Of a stretch of DNA of 21,456 nucleotides, positions 145-21,095 are shown in pieces. Made by a program: the position numbers and the translations under genes. Position 1 is the stretch's first letter; every line of letters starts with the position of its first letter. Below the pieces are notes generated by a model that saw only the letters and a program-made list of their open reading frames with translations, made no database searches and had not been told where the DNA came from. This DNA comes from a virus. Location of the stretch: the IMG/VR virus record IMGVR_UViG_3300025467_000088, positions 1 to 21,456 of that record. One strand, written 5' to 3'.

Positions 145-789
145 TTAGCTATCCACGGCAACTGCTTGACGATCACCAAGACGATCCACATCTTCTGTTT
201 TGAGAGATTGAATTGCCTCAGTGTACTTTTGTTGGAAAATCTGACGCTGATCGTTCTTTAGGAACGGCATTGCTTGTAAAAGGGTGCCAAACAACATTGC
301 TGTTGGAGCATTTTGAGTCAACCAATTAGTTTGATTAGTAGAGCTCAATGGAGCAATACGCTCGTAGTAGAGCACTTCAAAATCATAGTTTTGGTCAGGA
401 GTAGGGGCCAAATACCAGTGTTCCCAGTCAGTATCTGCATAGAACTGAGGAGGAGCCATTTCATTATTGTCAGGCCAAAAATTAGTTAAATACTCATATT
501 TGCGAAGAAATACAGGCTTTCTTGTCCCAGTGGCATCTGTGAAATTAAAAGACACAGTCTTACGCCATCTAGCTGGTTTAGCCAATACTGGATTTCCAGC
601 AAGCATGGTTGCCTGTGCTACCTGCAATTGACCAAGAGTCTTGATCTCCTGAGCAATTTCAAATTCAGCCAAGGTAATAAATGTAGGAATAGCATTGATA
701 GTGGCCTGATCTGACCGCTCCAAGTACTGTAGAACAGTCGATGTCAGACTATCGTAGGTCATTACCCATGATGGTGTAGCTGTGGTCAT
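145..789 (-). CDS. Second adaptor-like (T7 gp11/P22 gp4-type) tail protein
   Basis: The 214-residue protein begins MTTATPSWVMTYDSLTSTVL. It has N-terminal helices including AEFEIAQEIKTLGQLQ (41-56), a beta part with RKYEYLTNFWPDN and HWYLAPTPDQNYDFEVLYYE (124-143), and a C-terminal helical part with TNWLTQNAPTAMLFGTLLQA. This helical/beta/helical layout is that of phage portal-adjacent adaptors, and the LYYERIAPLS...NWLTQNAPTA.L.G stretch is familiar from podovirus-like tail adaptor proteins. The gene lies after the lysis cassette, away from the other adaptor gene. A 2-base gap separates its stop from the next ATG. The upstream 56 bases (790-845) show no clear promoter or hairpin. Confidence 0.75.
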   Translation of the reverse strand: MTTATPSWVMTYDSLTSTVLQYLERSDQATINAIPTFITLAEFEIAQEIKTLGQLQVAQATMLAGNPVLAKPARWRKTVSFNFTDATGTRKPVFLRKYEYLTNFWPDNNEMAPPQFYADTDWEHWYLAPTPDQNYDFEVLYYERIAPLSSTNQTNWLTQNAPTAMLFGTLLQAMPFLKNDQRQIFQQKYTEAIQSLKTEDVDRLGDRQAVAVDS

Positions 790-8632: not shown

Positions 8633-9019
8633 TTATTGGCTCGTCGGTGAATTAGGGCTTGGTGAAATTATGTCTGTATTGCCATCTTGCTGTGGTACCG
8701 CAGTCCCGTTTTCAGTGCTGATATAGAATTCGCTTGGATTACCGCCCGGTATGCTTGTATCGTTAGGGCCAATTACTAATCCAGCATCATCTGCCGCAAC
8801 ACTGAGGTCAGGTCTTGGATATTGTAAATTGATACGCTCAGTTTTACGAGCAGGTAGTCTGTAAGGGTCTTTCTGATCCGCACATCCTTGTTGACACACT
8901 TTTAGACCCGGAAAATTGGGGTCAGGCATGGCCTCAGTAATGGCCCTCTTCATCTTGCATCGATCGCAAATGAAGATTGCTATTACTGCGTTGCCAGTTG
9001 TGTTTAACCATTTAGGCAT
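8633..9019 (-). CDS. Four-cysteine (putative zinc-binding) phage protein
   Basis: The 128-residue protein has four cysteines in a CxxC...CxxxC arrangement: C18, C21, C42 and C46 (FICDRCKMKR, then LKVCQQGC). This arrangement could bind zinc. A conserved-looking stretch follows, DPYRLPARKTERINLQYPRP (51-70). The remaining ~55 residues are Gly/Pro/Ser/Asp-rich and probably flexible. The start ATG shares bases with the connector stop (TAATG), and the stop lies one base before the next ATG. A small Cys protein between connector and fibre could be a tail-attachment or bridging protein. I recall similar unnamed proteins in this position in other phages, but no proven function. Confidence 0.7.
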   Translation of the reverse strand: MPKWLNTTGNAVIAIFICDRCKMKRAITEAMPDPNFPGLKVCQQGCADQKDPYRLPARKTERINLQYPRPDLSVAADDAGLVIGPNDTSIPGGNPSEFYISTENGTAVPQQDGNTDIISPSPNSPTSQ

Positions 9020-10092
9020 TATCTTGTGTAAACTCCAATGTTGGGTGCAAAGTAAATCGGAGACTTATCACGCTCTTCGTTTTCAGCCATAGTGAAATAT
9101 AGCTGGGCTTGTGTGTCCAAATACTGAATTCTAGTCAGCTCAACAGCAGGCAAAATCATGCTCATCTGATGGGCCAATAGGAATTGAATAGCCTGATTCC
9201 AACGCTGTGGGATCTCCAATTGACCATTCAAATCACCTACGTCCATGATTTGGCGTGAATACCAAATAGTCATTTGTACAAACGCATTAGATGGAGCAGG
9301 CCATAAAGTGATTTTTGCCTGTGGAATTGTGCGGTTTAACCAATATTGATAAGGCTGATTGGCATTGAAATTCTTGTTTGGCAGGTTTGTATAGTCATCA
9401 CGATTAAGGCGAGACATGGTCACTTCGGTTGAATTATCGCCAAAGTAGAGCTCACGCAAGGCCAAAGTTGTGCCATTAAACGCCTGCATTCTGTAGTACT
9501 GAGCAGTTGCACCCGGATCTATATCTTGCCAAATCCACTGTCCATCAGTCACAGCTACGTTAGTGCCTGTATACAGGTTTACCCAATTGGTTCCATCGTA
9601 GGAGTACTGTAGGTAATAGTTCCATGTGGAAGAACCGCCACCAGCGATATATGGCATAAATCCAATGGAGCCAATGTACTGTGAGTTATTAGTACCGTAA
9701 TTGACAGAAAAATATCCGTTTGGGGATGTTTGTTGGCAATAGGTTTGAGTATTGTTGTCATAGATGTTTGACACCGTTCCCCCTGCACTGGATGAATACG
9801 CTCCTGAAGGGCGTGTCATCGTGCGATAAAGGGCGTTCAATACGTCAACGCCACCTACTGGTAGTAAATACTCATATTGGTCAGGAATCAGGCCATAAAC
9901 CTGTTTATTGATTGCCCAATAGTTAATACCTTGGTTAATTAGGTTGCTTAAAACAAAAAACAAAGCCTGCTTAGAACTTTGTACTTGCTCAACTGTGAGC
10001 TCTTCCGCAAGTTTGCCAGCTAAACGGGCACCTTGATCAATAAAGTTTTGGACTGTTACTACAGTCTGTCCTACCGTTCCGCTGTAAGCCAT
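9019..10092 (-). CDS. Head-tail connector/adaptor protein with discoidin-like insertion
   Basis: The 357-residue protein has an N-terminal helical region (VQNFIDQGARLAGKLAEELT, then SNLINQGINYWAINKQ, about 14-63). It also has a C-terminal region with LNRTIPQAKITLWPAPSN (252-269), MTIWYSRQIMDVGDL and helices at 294-340. Together these resemble T7 gp11/P22 gp4-type adaptors that join portal to tail. Between them, residues about 95-220 look like a discoidin (F5/8 type C) domain: YDNNTQTYC, an aromatic-rich strand set, YDGTNWVNLYTGT (165-177), then YYRMQAFNGTTLALRELYFG. This insertion could bind carbohydrate. GAGG lies before the ATG, and its TAA overlaps the next ATG (TAATG). The adaptor role is inferred from architecture and context. 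Confidence 0.75.
   Translation of the reverse strand: MAYSGTVGQTVVTVQNFIDQGARLAGKLAEELTVEQVQSSKQALFFVLSNLINQGINYWAINKQVYGLIPDQYEYLLPVGGVDVLNALYRTMTRPSGAYSSSAGGTVSNIYDNNTQTYCQQTSPNGYFSVNYGTNNSQYIGSIGFMPYIAGGGSSTWNYYLQYSYDGTNWVNLYTGTNVAVTDGQWIWQDIDPGATAQYYRMQAFNGTTLALRELYFGDNSTEVTMSRLNRDDYTNLPNKNFNANQPYQYWLNRTIPQAKITLWPAPSNAFVQMTIWYSRQIMDVGDLNGQLEIPQRWNQAIQFLLAHQMSMILPAVELTRIQYLDTQAQLYFTMAENEERDKSPIYFAPNIGVYTR
9433..9810 (-). other. Discoidin-like (F5/8 type C) domain insertion in connector
   Basis: Codons about 95-220. The order of motifs (DNNTQTY, strand with SIGFMPY, WNYYLQYSYDGTNW, WIWQDI, YYRMQAF, LRELYFG) follows the jelly-roll pattern of discoidin domains. It is flanked on both sides by adaptor-like helices. 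Assignment is by pattern only. Confidence 0.55.
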
Positions 10093-11743: not shown

Positions 11744-13630
11744 TTAACACTTTCTTGCAGAGCCACCACGTCTTTTAGCTGGCGTAACTGTTACTGATTT
11801 CTCAGTCTTTGTCACGCTTTCAGGAGCCTTTGAACCAAACAAACCTTTAACAGCACTCACTCCACGTTTAACCATGTTTGGAATGATGTTGGCATCTGCT
11901 TCGTTCTCTTCTCTCTGACTTTTTTCCCAGTTGGCATATGCCTTGTTGTTTGCTCTTGTTTGAGCATCATCAACAACTGAGTCTCCATCAGCATAACGCT
12001 TTGCCTTTCCACCATGTTTGTAACGGTTTAATGCAAACTTGGCTGTATCGTGAGCATCTTCTTTATCATCGGTGTGATAGTCGGAATCAGGAAAATGCTT
12101 TCCTTCAGGACTATAAAACCGAACACGATGCTCACCCCAATCCTTGTCTTTATAAACCTTTGCTACATGGCCTTTAGGGCCTGTGTGCGTAGAAATTAAC
12201 CGGAGGTTGGGTTTTTCCTCCTTCTCCGCACGACCACCCTTAGCGAGCTTTTTTACTCCACCACCAGTCTTGAAAGTACCTGACTGGAGGCTATTAGCCA
12301 CGGGACGGCTGACGAAATGACGAGGCATTTTTACTGCCTTACCATCATCGACAACATTACCGCCCGTGGCGTAGTGCTTTTTTGAAGCATGACCTCCACG
12401 CTTAAAACCACCAGCATTGGATTCTTTTACTTCTCCAGTGCGTGTGTTTTTAACGCCAGCGGTCGCTGTATCAGCCGCACGATTTTCCCAATCGCCGCCT
12501 TCTACAGCATCATGCTTAAAATGACCTTCCCTCTTGTTTTTCTCAGTAGCCGCTGGAATTGCACCACCTGTTGCTTTGTGATGCATTTTGCCGCCATGCT
12601 TGAAGCCACCAGCATTACTCATTGCTACACCACCTGTGGATTTTTGTCCACGATCAGGTTTAGCAGAATGCATCTGAGTATCTTCATAATCGTGCTCGTT
12701 GTCCTCAATAGTGCCACCAAACTTGGTTTTACCCTTGTTATATGACTCATGAGTATCGGAAGGAGTGCGATCACCAGTTGTACCACCTTTGGCATAGCTA
12801 CCACCTTTGCACATCTTAGCCATATGCTTGTGCTCTTCGCACTTGCGAGCATGGTGTGCAGAACCAGTTTCATCACACATTTTCTTGTGATGTTTAGCCA
12901 TAGCTTTGTGATGCTCATGTGAACCTTCAGGATGACCTGAAATACGATGAACTTTACCGCCATGCTTGTAGCCTGCTGGACGATCTTCATGGATCTCACC
13001 AGTGCCATGTGCACGATCACGATGAGCTGTATCCATCTTGGTCTTCTCGAACTTCTTGGCACCTTTTTCGATGGTTGTGCGTGTTTCTGCACGATCGATA
13101 GAACCGCCGGAAGCCTTGTGATGGGCTTTAGACATTGGTAATGACTCATGGTGATGGAGTTCTTTTTCAAGCTTCTCAATCATCTTATGGTCAGCAGATC
13201 CACCTTTTTTCATGCCTGTAAGTGCTTTGCGAACAGCCATTGCACGAGCATTACGTTGCATAGGATTCATTGCACCAATTGCTTTAGGGCCCATTGGAGT
13301 CATAGGAGCACGACCCTGATCCATTGCTGGATTAGCCATTGGCATACCGCCACCCATAACCTTATGAGCAACTTTGCCACCCTTTTTGTACTGATTAGGG
13401 TTCATTGCCTTCATACGCTCCATCATTGAAGGCTTTTTAGGGGCTTTGCCATGCTCTGATTCAAAAGCGTGATGCATACCACCCATAGCGTGATGCTCCA
13501 TGCTCTTATGACCATGATGCTCACCACCTTCTTTGTGATGCTTGGCTTTGACCTTACCACCTTTTTTGAGTTTCAAAGATACTGAAGGCTCATCGGTGTA
13601 CATCTTTACCATTGGTTTAAATTCAGACAT
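11744..13630 (-). CDS. Lys/His/Gly-rich modular protein with KxGG repeats
   Basis: The 628-residue protein has an extreme composition, rich in Lys, His, Gly and Met, with GG doublets throughout. These include LKKGGKV (21-27), YKKGGKV (81-87), YKHGGKV (221-227), FKHGGKM (343-349), FKRGGHA (409-415) and YKHGGKAKRY (537-546). Three related modules end in (A)GG(Y/F)K(H/R)GG, at about 199-228, 308-349 and 376-413. A His/Cys cluster lies at 251-274 (C252, H259, H260, C264, H268, H270, C274). One segment looks folded, about 476-537 (HVAKVYKDKDWGEHRVRFYS then YHTDDKEDAHDTAKFA). The C-terminus is basic and ends RGGSARKC. AGGAG precedes the ATG, and a terminator follows. Its place after the capsid gene suggests a virion-associated or nucleic-acid-binding role, but I know no proven function. 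Confidence 0.75.
   Translation of the reverse strand: MSEFKPMVKMYTDEPSVSLKLKKGGKVKAKHHKEGGEHHGHKSMEHHAMGGMHHAFESEHGKAPKKPSMMERMKAMNPNQYKKGGKVAHKVMGGGMPMANPAMDQGRAPMTPMGPKAIGAMNPMQRNARAMAVRKALTGMKKGGSADHKMIEKLEKELHHHESLPMSKAHHKASGGSIDRAETRTTIEKGAKKFEKTKMDTAHRDRAHGTGEIHEDRPAGYKHGGKVHRISGHPEGSHEHHKAMAKHHKKMCDETGSAHHARKCEEHKHMAKMCKGGSYAKGGTTGDRTPSDTHESYNKGKTKFGGTIEDNEHDYEDTQMHSAKPDRGQKSTGGVAMSNAGGFKHGGKMHHKATGGAIPAATEKNKREGHFKHDAVEGGDWENRAADTATAGVKNTRTGEVKESNAGGFKRGGHASKKHYATGGNVVDDGKAVKMPRHFVSRPVANSLQSGTFKTGGGVKKLAKGGRAEKEEKPNLRLISTHTGPKGHVAKVYKDKDWGEHRVRFYSPEGKHFPDSDYHTDDKEDAHDTAKFALNRYKHGGKAKRYADGDSVVDDAQTRANNKAYANWEKSQREENEADANIIPNMVKRGVSAVKGLFGSKAPESVTKTEKSVTVTPAKRRGGSARKC
12392..13036 (-). 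repeat. Three diverged modules ending in (A)GG(Y/F)K(H/R)GG
   Basis: Module A (13036-12947) has RDRAHGTGEIHEDRPAGYKH before GG. Module B (12709-12584) has HDYEDTQMHSAKPDRG, then SNAGGFKHGGKM. Module C (12505-12392) has TRTGEVKESNAGGFKRGG. B and C share SNAGGFK exactly. A aligns only through its acidic/Gly part and the final YKHGG. The repeats are at protein level and diverged in DNA. Confidence 0.6.
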
Positions 13631-14694: not shown

Positions 14695-15609
14695 TTAGAT
14701 ACCGGGTGTACCGTACGCACAACGTGGGTCAGTAAAGCCCAAATCGTAACGCTCAGTAGCCTTGTAACGCATTGTGTCAGTCTCGAAATCACCTTCCATG
14801 GTTTTCTCCAAACGACGACGCATCAGAAGCTTAAAGCCTTCAGGAGCATCGGTTTGAACCCACCAAGCAGTTGCTGATGTCAAACGTGACAATACAGCGG
14901 CACCTTCGTCAAGCAAGCCAATAGACTTGATTGGGTTGATGTCGTTGTTTGCGTTACCAGTACGCAATACAGATTTCAACAATACTTCAGCTTGGAAGAT
15001 ATTGCCCGGAGCCACGATCAATTGACGTGGAACCAAACGAATACGCTTACCGTTGTTGTCTACTGCTTGACGGATCTGAATCAACATCTGTTCTAAAGAT
15101 GTTTGTGACAGAACAGCGGCTGTAGCTAACTGGTTGCTGAATGTACCGTTTACGATTGGGTGTGCAGTGTTAATCAAAGACACGCCATCGCCGCCCGGAT
15201 AGGCAGAGTTGAAAGCTGTATTTAACACGTTAGCGGCTAACAATTCTTTGGTTTCCACCAAGGATTGTGCCAAGTGACGTGCATATACTTGACCGATACG
15301 AATATGGTCGCCGTCTTCAACCAATACCTTAGTCAAAGCGAAGGCAAGGCCATACACTTTGTATAGGTAACGCTTGAGGAACAATACGCCACCTTGCTGA
15401 TAGGTAACAGGTGTACCGTCAGGCAATTGTGGAGCGGCTCCAAATCCATAAAGGACTGGTTCTTCGTGGTAGTTGCGTGGAATACCGTCTTCCTCACGGA
15501 ATACTCGGCTCCATTCGTCTGCACGTTGGTCATAAACTCCATCGAAACATTCGTTGAGGATTGGTTCAACGATTGATCGGAAGTCCGTACTTCTCATCGG
15601 TGCGGCCAT
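14695..15609 (-). CDS. Major capsid protein (HK97-type fold, Mu gpT-like group)
   Basis: The 304-residue product has the features expected of a major capsid protein. N-terminal helices (RSIVEPILNECFDGVYDQ) precede a region with an aromatic/basic helix (LFLKRYLYKVYGLAFALTKV, about 76-95). Next comes a spine-helix-like stretch (ARHLAQSLVETKELLAANVL). The TAHPIVNGTFSNQL segment (about 148-161) and the LVPRQLIVAPGNIFQAEVLL segment resemble the Mu gpT-like capsid group. The C-terminal part contains QTDAPEGFKLLMRRRLEK. It follows scaffold and decoration genes, has GGGAG before the ATG, and is followed at once by an intrinsic terminator, as expected for the most abundant virion protein. No N-terminal cleavage propeptide is evident. 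Confidence 0.9.
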   Translation of the reverse strand: MAAPMRSTDFRSIVEPILNECFDGVYDQRADEWSRVFREEDGIPRNYHEEPVLYGFGAAPQLPDGTPVTYQQGGVLFLKRYLYKVYGLAFALTKVLVEDGDHIRIGQVYARHLAQSLVETKELLAANVLNTAFNSAYPGGDGVSLINTAHPIVNGTFSNQLATAAVLSQTSLEQMLIQIRQAVDNNGKRIRLVPRQLIVAPGNIFQAEVLLKSVLRTGNANNDINPIKSIGLLDEGAAVLSRLTSATAWWVQTDAPEGFKLLMRRRLEKTMEGDFETDTMRYKATERYDLGFTDPRCAYGTPGI

Positions 15610-18497: not shown

Positions 18498-18661
18498 TTA
18501 TTTTTCTTACTTGCGTGAGAAAGACCACCTGATTTTGCTTTTGATTCTTCATTGCCACCTTTAGGTTGCATTGATGTGCCATCGAGCTTAACGCCCATGG
18601 CTAAACGAGCGTGGTAACGCACGTCAATGCCTTTCTGCTCTTTATCCGACGATGTTGCCAT
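18494..18661 (-). CDS. Small hydrophilic hypothetical protein (55 aa)
   Basis: A short gene that begins inside the end of the portal gene and ends in an ATGA overlap with the next gene. A perfect AAGGAG lies 6 bases before its ATG (18668-18673), which strongly supports this start. The protein begins MATSSDKEQKGIDVRYHARL and becomes Gly/Ser/Lys-rich toward the C-terminus (KSGGLSHASKKNK). It is probably soluble and partly disordered, with no membrane segment. The function is unknown. Its place between portal and scaffold suggests a minor head-assembly or accessory role, which is inference only. Confidence 0.75.
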   Translation of the reverse strand: MATSSDKEQKGIDVRYHARLAMGVKLDGTSMQPKGGNEESKAKSGGLSHASKKNK

Positions 18662-21095
18662 TTGGTTCTCCTTGTTGAGGGGTTGGTGCTACTGGGGGTG
18701 CAGGCGGTTGGGCCTGCGGTTGAGCATTAGCGATATTTTGTATCGTTTGATGCGTCAATTCTGCGTTCTTAATTTCAATCTTGGTTTGATTATCAAGAGC
18801 GGCTTTTTGTGCGTCTGCTGTGATCTTAGCCTGTGCAATCTGTGCATCAGCTTGATCTTTAGCAGTCTTACGTTGTGTCTCAGCCGTTGCAGTGTCCTTA
18901 ACCACTTGTGCATCAGGTGGCAATTGTGGAGGTGCATTCTTGGCTTGTGCCATTTGAATAAGTTTTTGGAAGGATGGGGCAAACTGACCCATCACTTCGG
19001 TTACGTCCATCATCACATGGGCACCAACAGTCGTGTACAGCTTGTCGATGATTGGTGTGTAGTTTGGATTCTCGTAATCGTCCACAGGCTTCTTGGTGGT
19101 TTCTTGCACATAACCATTGGAACGGTTGAGATACCAAAGGGTCATATGTTGCTTGAGATGCTCGATCAGATTGTTCAGATAAGATGGATCTGCAAATGGT
19201 GACTGGCCCATGTATGGGTTCATCGCAAACTGCAAGTGATCCTGAATGTGAGCAATATGATCCTGCTGGATATAAGCATAGGCAGGCTGTCCAATCAGTA
19301 ATGCCGCATTCTCATCTGCTGAGGTACGTTGTTCCGGAGCAGGAGTGTCAACCATAATCTCATTGATGTTTGGTATCTTCATCTGCTTGAGGAATCGGGC
19401 AATTACTGGGCCCATTTTAAACTGATCAGGATGCTTCTCAGCCAAGGCGAGCACAGCTTGTGACTGTGCCATCCGTTGAGTCTCAGAGAATATATGCGGA
19501 TCAGAGACAGGAACCACATCTGTGTTCTTGGAGAAATCTTCACGAGTTACATCCAAGTCGGAGACAATGTCCCCTTTTTGCATGTCATCAAAATGCCAGC
19601 GATTGAGTCGGCAAAGGATTTTAAGAACCCTTGCTTGTGACTCATGGAGTCGGGCGTGGATCGATGAGTAAACTTGTGAGCCCTGCTCAATCAAAGCTTG
19701 TGTAGTGCCCACAGGAGCGTTTGCAGAGATGTCAGCTATCTTCTCTTCAGCAGTGGTTACTACGGAGCTTGTAGCCTTATCCAAGAAGCCTAGGAGCTCA
19801 AATAGAACCTGACTAGGTGGATTGAATGGCATAGGCATCGCAATTTGGCGAATGTCCTGCACGCCGGGTGCACCTTCGATTTCTACGATTTGTGTAACGT
19901 CTACTTGCTGGCTTTGTCCACTGATCTTTGCTCCTTTGAGCTTGAGCATCGTAGCCGCATTATTAATGTGTGCACTATCCAGTAAAGCACGCAATGAACC
20001 AGTAAGAGCGGCACTAAGACCACCGATAAGATGAGGGAGCCCAATAGCAAAGGCACCACGCCAAGGTATAAATTTAAATTCAACAATCCAATCAAGCTTA
20101 GTTCGGGTCTCATCGGACTCCTCCCAGTTGCGGTACAAGCCCACTACCTCGTTATCGAGCTCGTCGATCATCAAGATGTAAGGGGCGTTTTTACCTTTAG
20201 TGGATTTATCGTCGTCTAGCTCCAACCATGTATAGATGTGATAGACCTTACGCAGGCCATCTTTGTTTGATTCGTATTGCTTGCCTTCAATCTTGTTGTT
20301 GGCTTGGGCTACTTTGCCCTCTTCTAAATTCTCAGTCGCTTTTGCGTAGCTGATGTCACGATACATACCGGATCTGATACGACGCTCAAATTCGTAGGTA
20401 GTAATCTCATGGACTTCAGCCGCACGCTGGGCGGTATAGAAATTGGTTGCGGCGAACGGTAGGATCACTCGGTCAATAGGCAAGAACTCAACGCATGGGC
20501 GTTTCTTATCCTCATCAAACCAAAGCTTGAAGTACTGTGAGCCACCTAGTGGTAGCTGAGTCAGGAGCTGTTCTTGCTCATCCCGGAACTCTTCGATCTG
20601 CTCGGTAATCTGCCAGTTAAGGTAGTCGACCTTGCGTTCTGCTACCGCCGCTTTGAGGTCATCCTGCTTACCAATGATCTTGGATTTGACCGGGCCATCC
20701 GGTGGGAACATTTCTTTAATTGCTCGTGCGGCGAAGTCAACGCATCCTTCAGCCATAGCAGGGTGCACGACTTTAGAAGCACCCATAAAGGTCGCACCTC
20801 CGGGGGCATCATTGCCCATACCAGTCCGTTTAATACCCTCTTCATACTGCTTATCTCTTAGTTCACGAGCTTGTTTATCGCTTTCCAATAGATCCATGTA
20901 TTGAAATACTAGATCTCCCAATGTACCAGCATCGACTGTATCTGCTAAGTTGTCATAGAACTCAGGATTGAATTCAGGGCCATCATCTAACTCAATGATT
21001 GCTGAACCATCAGCTTGCTCTTCAGTATCCATGCTGGGCATGTCAACGAATGCAGAGCCATCATCTTGTTCGTCAATGTTAATATCGTCTGCCAT
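18642..21095 (-). CDS. Portal (head-tail connector) protein
   Basis: The 817-residue product resembles podovirus (P22-like) portal proteins. The dodecameric portal forms the vertex through which DNA is packaged and to which the tail attaches. Visible features: an acidic N-terminus with two DGSA motifs (residues 11-19 and 28-36); a segment typical of this portal group, GGATFMGASKVVHPAM (about 99-114), followed by CVDFAARAIKEMFPP; a long mixed alpha/beta core; and a C-terminal Ala/Gln/Lys-rich helix (about 722-790) ending in a Pro/Gln-rich tail. The C-terminal helix could be a barrel-like extension as in P22. The length is typical for this type. The ATG at 21095 overlaps the previous stop (TAATG). 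Its 3' end overlaps the next gene by 20 bases. The portal assignment rests on remembered family signatures, length and gene order, because no search was possible. Confidence 0.9.
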   Translation of the reverse strand: MADDINIDEQDDGSAFVDMPSMDTEEQADGSAIIELDDGPEFNPEFYDNLADTVDAGTLGDLVFQYMDLLESDKQARELRDKQYEEGIKRTGMGNDAPGGATFMGASKVVHPAMAEGCVDFAARAIKEMFPPDGPVKSKIIGKQDDLKAAVAERKVDYLNWQITEQIEEFRDEQEQLLTQLPLGGSQYFKLWFDEDKKRPCVEFLPIDRVILPFAATNFYTAQRAAEVHEITTYEFERRIRSGMYRDISYAKATENLEEGKVAQANNKIEGKQYESNKDGLRKVYHIYTWLELDDDKSTKGKNAPYILMIDELDNEVVGLYRNWEESDETRTKLDWIVEFKFIPWRGAFAIGLPHLIGGLSAALTGSLRALLDSAHINNAATMLKLKGAKISGQSQQVDVTQIVEIEGAPGVQDIRQIAMPMPFNPPSQVLFELLGFLDKATSSVVTTAEEKIADISANAPVGTTQALIEQGSQVYSSIHARLHESQARVLKILCRLNRWHFDDMQKGDIVSDLDVTREDFSKNTDVVPVSDPHIFSETQRMAQSQAVLALAEKHPDQFKMGPVIARFLKQMKIPNINEIMVDTPAPEQRTSADENAALLIGQPAYAYIQQDHIAHIQDHLQFAMNPYMGQSPFADPSYLNNLIEHLKQHMTLWYLNRSNGYVQETTKKPVDDYENPNYTPIIDKLYTTVGAHVMMDVTEVMGQFAPSFQKLIQMAQAKNAPPQLPPDAQVVKDTATAETQRKTAKDQADAQIAQAKITADAQKAALDNQTKIEIKNAELTHQTIQNIANAQPQAQPPAPPVAPTPQQGEPNGNIVG
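18668..18673 (-). promoter_or_regulatory. Strong ribosome binding site inside portal 3' end
   Basis: AAGGAG on the minus strand, 6 bases before the ATG at 18661 and inside the portal coding sequence. It fixes the start of the 55-residue protein. Confidence 0.8.
20988..21065 (-). repeat. Two DGSA motifs in portal N-terminus
   Basis: Codons 11-19 (DDGSAFVDM) and 28-36 (ADGSAIIEL) of the portal gene repeat the pattern (D/A)DGSA, two hydrophobic residues, an acidic residue, then a hydrophobic one. The same motif occurs in the scaffold at 17715-17741. Confidence 0.7.

Follow-up and report, generated by a model that had tools for sequence, protein, structure and literature searches.

The window, by which we mean the whole 21,456-base viral record analysed here, encodes a 357-aa protein (P0001) that appears from its profiles and predicted fold to be a T7/SU10-type portal adaptor and should, by analogy, form a ring under the portal. 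A discoidin/CBM32-like domain is spliced into one hairpin of the adaptor beta (fibre-dock) domain and, as judged by comparing related sequences, this insert moves between close relatives separately from the rest of the adaptor, an observation that is new here. The domain insertion is confirmed, and carbohydrate-binding modules on phage neck and tail proteins are already known as a kind; no published discoidin domain on an adaptor was found in the literature covered (including discoidin combined with adaptor and portal; subscription papers lay outside this coverage). We lean towards a role of the domain as an accessory adhesin, for which we infer an outward position, a copy number, a glycan ligand and an effect on adsorption.

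P0001 is encoded in a tailed-phage structural block on the minus strand of the window (Table 1). The block runs from the portal through a GroES-like protein, a probable scaffold, the major capsid protein and several small proteins to P0001 and a 128-aa cysteine-rich protein, and continues with a pair of long fibre-like proteins, the lysis genes and a further adaptor-like protein; the P0001 gene is thus placed between the major capsid and fibre genes, and MW202545 has the same order. This further protein is encoded close to the lysis genes, and the phage apparently has two proteins of adaptor type, which perhaps form two stacked rings as in crAss001 or GP4. Elsewhere in the window, a 628-aa protein (11744-13630, minus strand) whose sequence abounds in His, Lys and Gly and repeats HH/KH/GG motifs lies between two putative decoration proteins and has only a short C-terminal PHROG match (phrog_7884). 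The cysteine-rich gene adjoined the adaptor gene in 82 of 82 and 78 of 81 related, insert-bearing loci and in 0 loci of other classes by BLAST, while profile searches found weak homologues of its product directly after the insert-less adaptors of L249 (E 0.0096) and L250 (E 0.0012). As its homologues also follow insert-less adaptors, it was rejected as an insert-specific gene partner and is regarded as a syntenic neighbour; searches of Pfam, PHROGs and NCBIfam assigned it to no family (only a chance-level Pfam hit).

Table 1. Features of the window discussed in the text, with the evidence for each
Feature	Positions	Strand	Basis
P0001, 357-aa portal/tail adaptor with inserted discoidin domain (predicted)	9019..10092	-	ORF, profiles, alignment, models
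N-terminal part of the adaptor core, residues 1-90, with helices 14-25 and 34-53 and the first strands of the dock	9823..10092	-	alignment, model
Inserted discoidin/CBM32-like domain, residues ~91-221	9430..9822	-	Pfam, model, PDB fold matches, boundaries
C-terminal part of the adaptor core, residues 222-357, with the other strands of the dock, helices 296-313 and 319-343 and the end tail	9022..9429	-	profile, alignment, model
128-aa cysteine-rich (zinc-ribbon-like) protein adjoining the adaptor	8633..9019	-	loci comparison
953-aa probable tail fibre protein, downstream of P0001	5770..8631	-	PHROG_31660 tail fiber, E 3.5e-5
Second adaptor-like protein, 214 aa, matching SU10_adaptor more strongly than P0001 does	145..789	-	E 7.4e-26
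Major capsid protein	14695..15609	-	profile matches
Portal protein	18642..21095	-	PHROG_1216, E 9.2e-21

A sequence-only reading had proposed an F5/8 type C jelly roll at residues 95-220 of P0001 (exactly 9433-9810 of the window), and a Pfam match, an AlphaFold2 model and PDB fold matches all agree with it. The Pfam family F5_F8_type_C matched residues 99-206 of the whole protein (E 1.8e-5) with 25.3 bits, below the curated 28.2, and the cut-out domain (E 1.9e-6) with 28.5 bits, just above that value; in relatives, E went down to 1.6e-8. In the AlphaFold2 model, for which an alignment of 92 relatives was the input, the insert is an all-beta sandwich with pLDDT 93-97 (mean of whole P0001, 84), and the jelly roll is present. 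This part of the model matched a CBM62 (PDB 2yfu) with Z 17.1 and rmsd 2.0 over 126 residues (91-220 of the model), numerous CBM32s (Z 14.5-16.7) and also F-lectins, the structures of these kinds lying at about Z 14-17 over ~115-128 residues at ~2-2.7 Å. On the model, residues ~91-221 of P0001 form a discoidin/CBM32 jelly roll. The interval proposed earlier lies inside this domain, while its ends are better placed at ~91-221 (9430-9822), the boundaries given by the alignment with insert-less relatives and by a sharp drop of identity in close pairs.

Besides the fold, the insert shares with CBM32, CBM62 and F5/8 type C domains the S-x-D-G-x-x-W motif and an Asp, a Thr and a late Glu. These three residues (D112, T117 and E214) are invariant in 82 of 82 sequences, and they may correspond to the structural calcium site usual in the family. 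In contrast to those domains, the P0001 domain is embedded in a virion ring protein, and the residues typical of the CBM32 galactose site (His, Arg, Asn, aromatic) were not recognisable in a rough profile alignment of the insert, in which Y148 presumably stands where the galactose-site Arg is usual. A search by sequence for a close relative with a solved structure found none; phmmer of P0001 returned only a weak hexosaminidase module (E 0.027).

Both flanks of the insert had also been taken for adaptor sequence, and this was borne out by the PHROG_12985 profile, by SU10_adaptor matches in relatives and by the fold of an insert-less relative. The flanks of P0001 match PHROG_12985 with E 7.9e-13, and the profile matches P0001 and insert-less members alike; the Pfam family SU10_adaptor is weak for P0001 alone (E 0.2) and matches 67 of the 92 family members, with a best E of 2.2e-15. 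Because the insert fills the fold list of P0001, we modelled the insert-less relative L252 (pLDDT 80) for the adaptor fold search instead. Its best 18 Foldseek hits were all phage portal-tail, tail or virion chains of adaptor, connector or ring type (lowest E 1.5e-8), from phages including cyanophage A4, Vibrio phage VP1, Ralstonia phage GP4, Pa223, KHP30, SU10, N4, crAss001 and T7. The Z values (A4 13.1, VP1 12.5, P22 gp4 12.4, GP4 11.9, SU10 10.4 and T7 gp11 10.2) are of a size that is unconvincing singly for partly helical proteins, but the whole match list of L252 is of one kind. Outside the insert, the P0001 model has the same order of helices and strands as L252, and the insert lies between strands 81-93 and 220-229, in the part corresponding to the dock domain. 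The adaptors of SU10 and P-SCSP1u are dodecamers with a helix bundle, a fibre-dock beta domain and an embracing loop or helix (PMC9509320, PMC10575957). P0001 resembles the portal adaptors T7 gp11, SU10 gp11, P22 gp4, A4, VP1 and GP4 in its helix pair, beta domain and C-terminal helix pair, in a head/tail-block gene between capsid and fibre genes, and in the PHROG_12985/SU10_adaptor profile family, whereas it has a ~130-residue discoidin domain in one hairpin and the matched adaptors are ~150-240 aa long without it. PHROG_12985 is listed as being of unknown function; its tested members (P0001, L166, L252 and L247 4476-5411), whether they carry an insert or lack one, are portal-adaptor-like by fold, and the family can now be named portal adaptor.

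The site of the insert is 7-15 residues long in insert-less relatives, compared with 130-135 residues in the full form of the insert and 104 in a short form. Insert-less proteins were found in Roseobacter phages CRP-901 and CRP-902, Pelagibacter phage HTVC023P, DSL-LC04, Pag-Yong1, Alcaligenes phage QDWS535 and many uncultured relatives; Planktothrix phages are among the hosts of such insert-less proteins. Since such orthologues exist and align with P0001, and the model of one of them matches solved adaptors, the domain is an insertion, as the sequence-only reading had held, and the alternative that it is integral to all adaptors was rejected. On a tree of the core columns, all insert-bearing rows group together (24 rows, support 95) with one change needed, the full and short forms are sister groups (support 99 and 95), and the insert is present in 24 of the 24 sampled members of its clade. 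As read from this sampled core tree, the discoidin insert was gained once; it is shortened in the Caulobacter-phage group.

The short form belongs to Caulobacter phages RW, GB2A, RLK and KcrB, the sister group of the window's group on the core tree, whose proteins (hypothetical in the records) are 36% identical to P0001 over their full length and carry the insert in the same place. Their loop is shortened (104 versus 135 residues): it shares its C-terminal half with the P0001 insert (hhalign E 6e-12) and lacks the equivalent of P0001 residues ~106-127, including D112 and T117, and with E214 mostly Gln the calcium-type motif is lost. As this branch is without the first-half loops and the motif, glycan binding is unlikely to be the sole reason for keeping the domain. 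In L292-L297 and HTVC027P, a second loop, after about residue 66, is occupied by different beta inserts ~75-85 residues long, with at least two changes forced on the tree. The loci concerned are L292 (1819-2727), L293 (3727-4644), L294, L296, L297 and L247 (4476-5411; HTVC027P gp64). The HTVC027P insert gave a match to a family of tail-fibre domains (PHROG_11439, E 4.6e-6); kinship of the L292/L293 loop insert with a 325-aa protein of the window, suspected by eye, was rejected, as the two have no similarity.

Exchange of the insert was analysed in 81 sequences of the window's group, in which insert and core protein identity are only loosely related (Spearman 0.33). For example, core and insert identity are 92% and 42% between P0001 and L070, compared with 74% and 71% between P0001 and L076. 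In close pairs there is an abrupt fall in identity at about residues 91 and 222. As a control, the pairwise identities of two flank parts (residues 5-91 and 224-290) correlate at 0.77, whereas those of the insert halves and the flanks correlate at only 0.20-0.41. In AU tests, the insert data rejected core clades (p 0.005 and 0.003) and the core data rejected insert clades (p 5.8e-6, 3e-45 and 0.02), although the exact p values are weakened because the tested groups were picked after the trees, which were quick ones, had been seen. Vertical inheritance of the insert with its flanks was rejected by these tests for several clades, although monophyly of the 'B' insert allele (that of L070) on the core tree was not rejected (p 0.34). 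At dS 0.7-1.5, omega was 0.177 for the insert versus 0.08-0.10 for the core, so that the insert changes ~2x faster, still under purifying selection.

Because the insert is exchanged independently of its flanks, a surface-contact role is favoured; together, the exchange, the faster change, the lectin-type fold and the insertion point in the dock domain favour an accessory adhesin over a purely structural part. By analogy, the ring would carry twelve copies of the predicted domain and, from homology to dodecameric adaptors, up to twelve could stand out at the collar. Contacts to host surface polysaccharide or surrounding glycans, weak individually, might be strengthened by copy number and keep the particle close to the cell as its fibres locate the receptor, and exchange of the domain between related phages would alter what is bound and leave head-tail joining undisturbed. 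In lactococcal 936 phages, neck, tail and Dit proteins carry carbohydrate-binding modules, of which one from the neck and one from the tail bind host cells when fused to GFP (PMC6669499). The neck-passage, major-tail and Dit modules of these phages resemble the P0001 domain as multi-copy, modular, carbohydrate-binding-type modules on neck or tail structural proteins, whereas their neck modules are on separate collar fibres of siphophages and that of P0001 is inside the adaptor itself.

The alternative that survives best, although we consider it unlikely, is a structural role, in which the domain would clamp or attach the adaptor ring to the vertex of the capsid or to a decoration protein and so brace it. 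In R4C and RcGTA, the attachment domains of the adaptors make contact with the capsid (PMC10276861, PMC7296036), and both adaptors resemble P0001 in having an accessory beta domain on a dodecameric head-tail adaptor; they differ in being siphophage-type, and that of R4C has an N-terminal Ig-like domain touching the capsid and no mid-protein discoidin insertion. Given its position near the head, the R4C authors thought a part in adsorption unlikely for this Ig-like domain (PMC10276861). Purifying selection on the insert and its presence in every sampled clade member would suit a clamp, and the Caulobacter branch, in keeping a shortened domain without the calcium-type motif, suggests that the domain may also serve structure; however, exchange independent of flanks that can be ~92% alike around inserts only 42% alike is unexpected for a capsid-fitting part, and orthologues manage without the insert.

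We think it improbable that the domain is instead an extended dock for the tail-fibre N-terminus with alleles tracking fibre alleles: the insertion does lie in the beta domain corresponding to the fibre dock of the T7, SU10 and P-SCSP1u adaptors, and fibre genes follow shortly downstream of the adaptor gene, but phages with tail-fibre genes, CRP-902 and others, lack the insert. Discoidin-type domains occur on many surface-displayed proteins, and nearly all relatives in the group are environmental contigs, yet we hold it very improbable that the insert targets a mucus-like matrix or glycans of the environment instead of the host, two kinds of binding that look alike at the sequence level.

Two contigs in betaproteobacterial genome bins carry proteins 77% and 67% identical to P0001, which is a weak hint, by sequence relationship, of a betaproteobacterial host, as viral contigs can be binned by chance. 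Contigs L330 and L331, from Burkholderiales/betaproteobacterial metagenome bins, carry close relatives; the cysteine-rich gene downstream of the adaptor in L331 seems to be divided between two frames. We infer a freshwater phage from the betaproteobacterial bins together with relatives found in spring water and streams.

Explanations of how short-tailed phages adsorb usually involve only fibres and spikes. With the accessory-adhesin role as our preferred reading, we tentatively suggest, as a broader view that may well not hold, that the adaptor ring of a widespread environmental phage group is a display platform, in which two loops take different beta domains and the discoidin cassette is traded independently of the ring, giving a collar-borne, swappable recognition layer apart from the tail fibres. 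If true, a lectin-like domain of the adaptor ring that is exchanged without the ring itself would provide an abundant group of environmental phages with a second layer of recognition and would give a testable reason for the large variation in adaptor length, and the cultured Caulobacter phages with the short form, together with cultured insert-less relatives, open the question to experiment.
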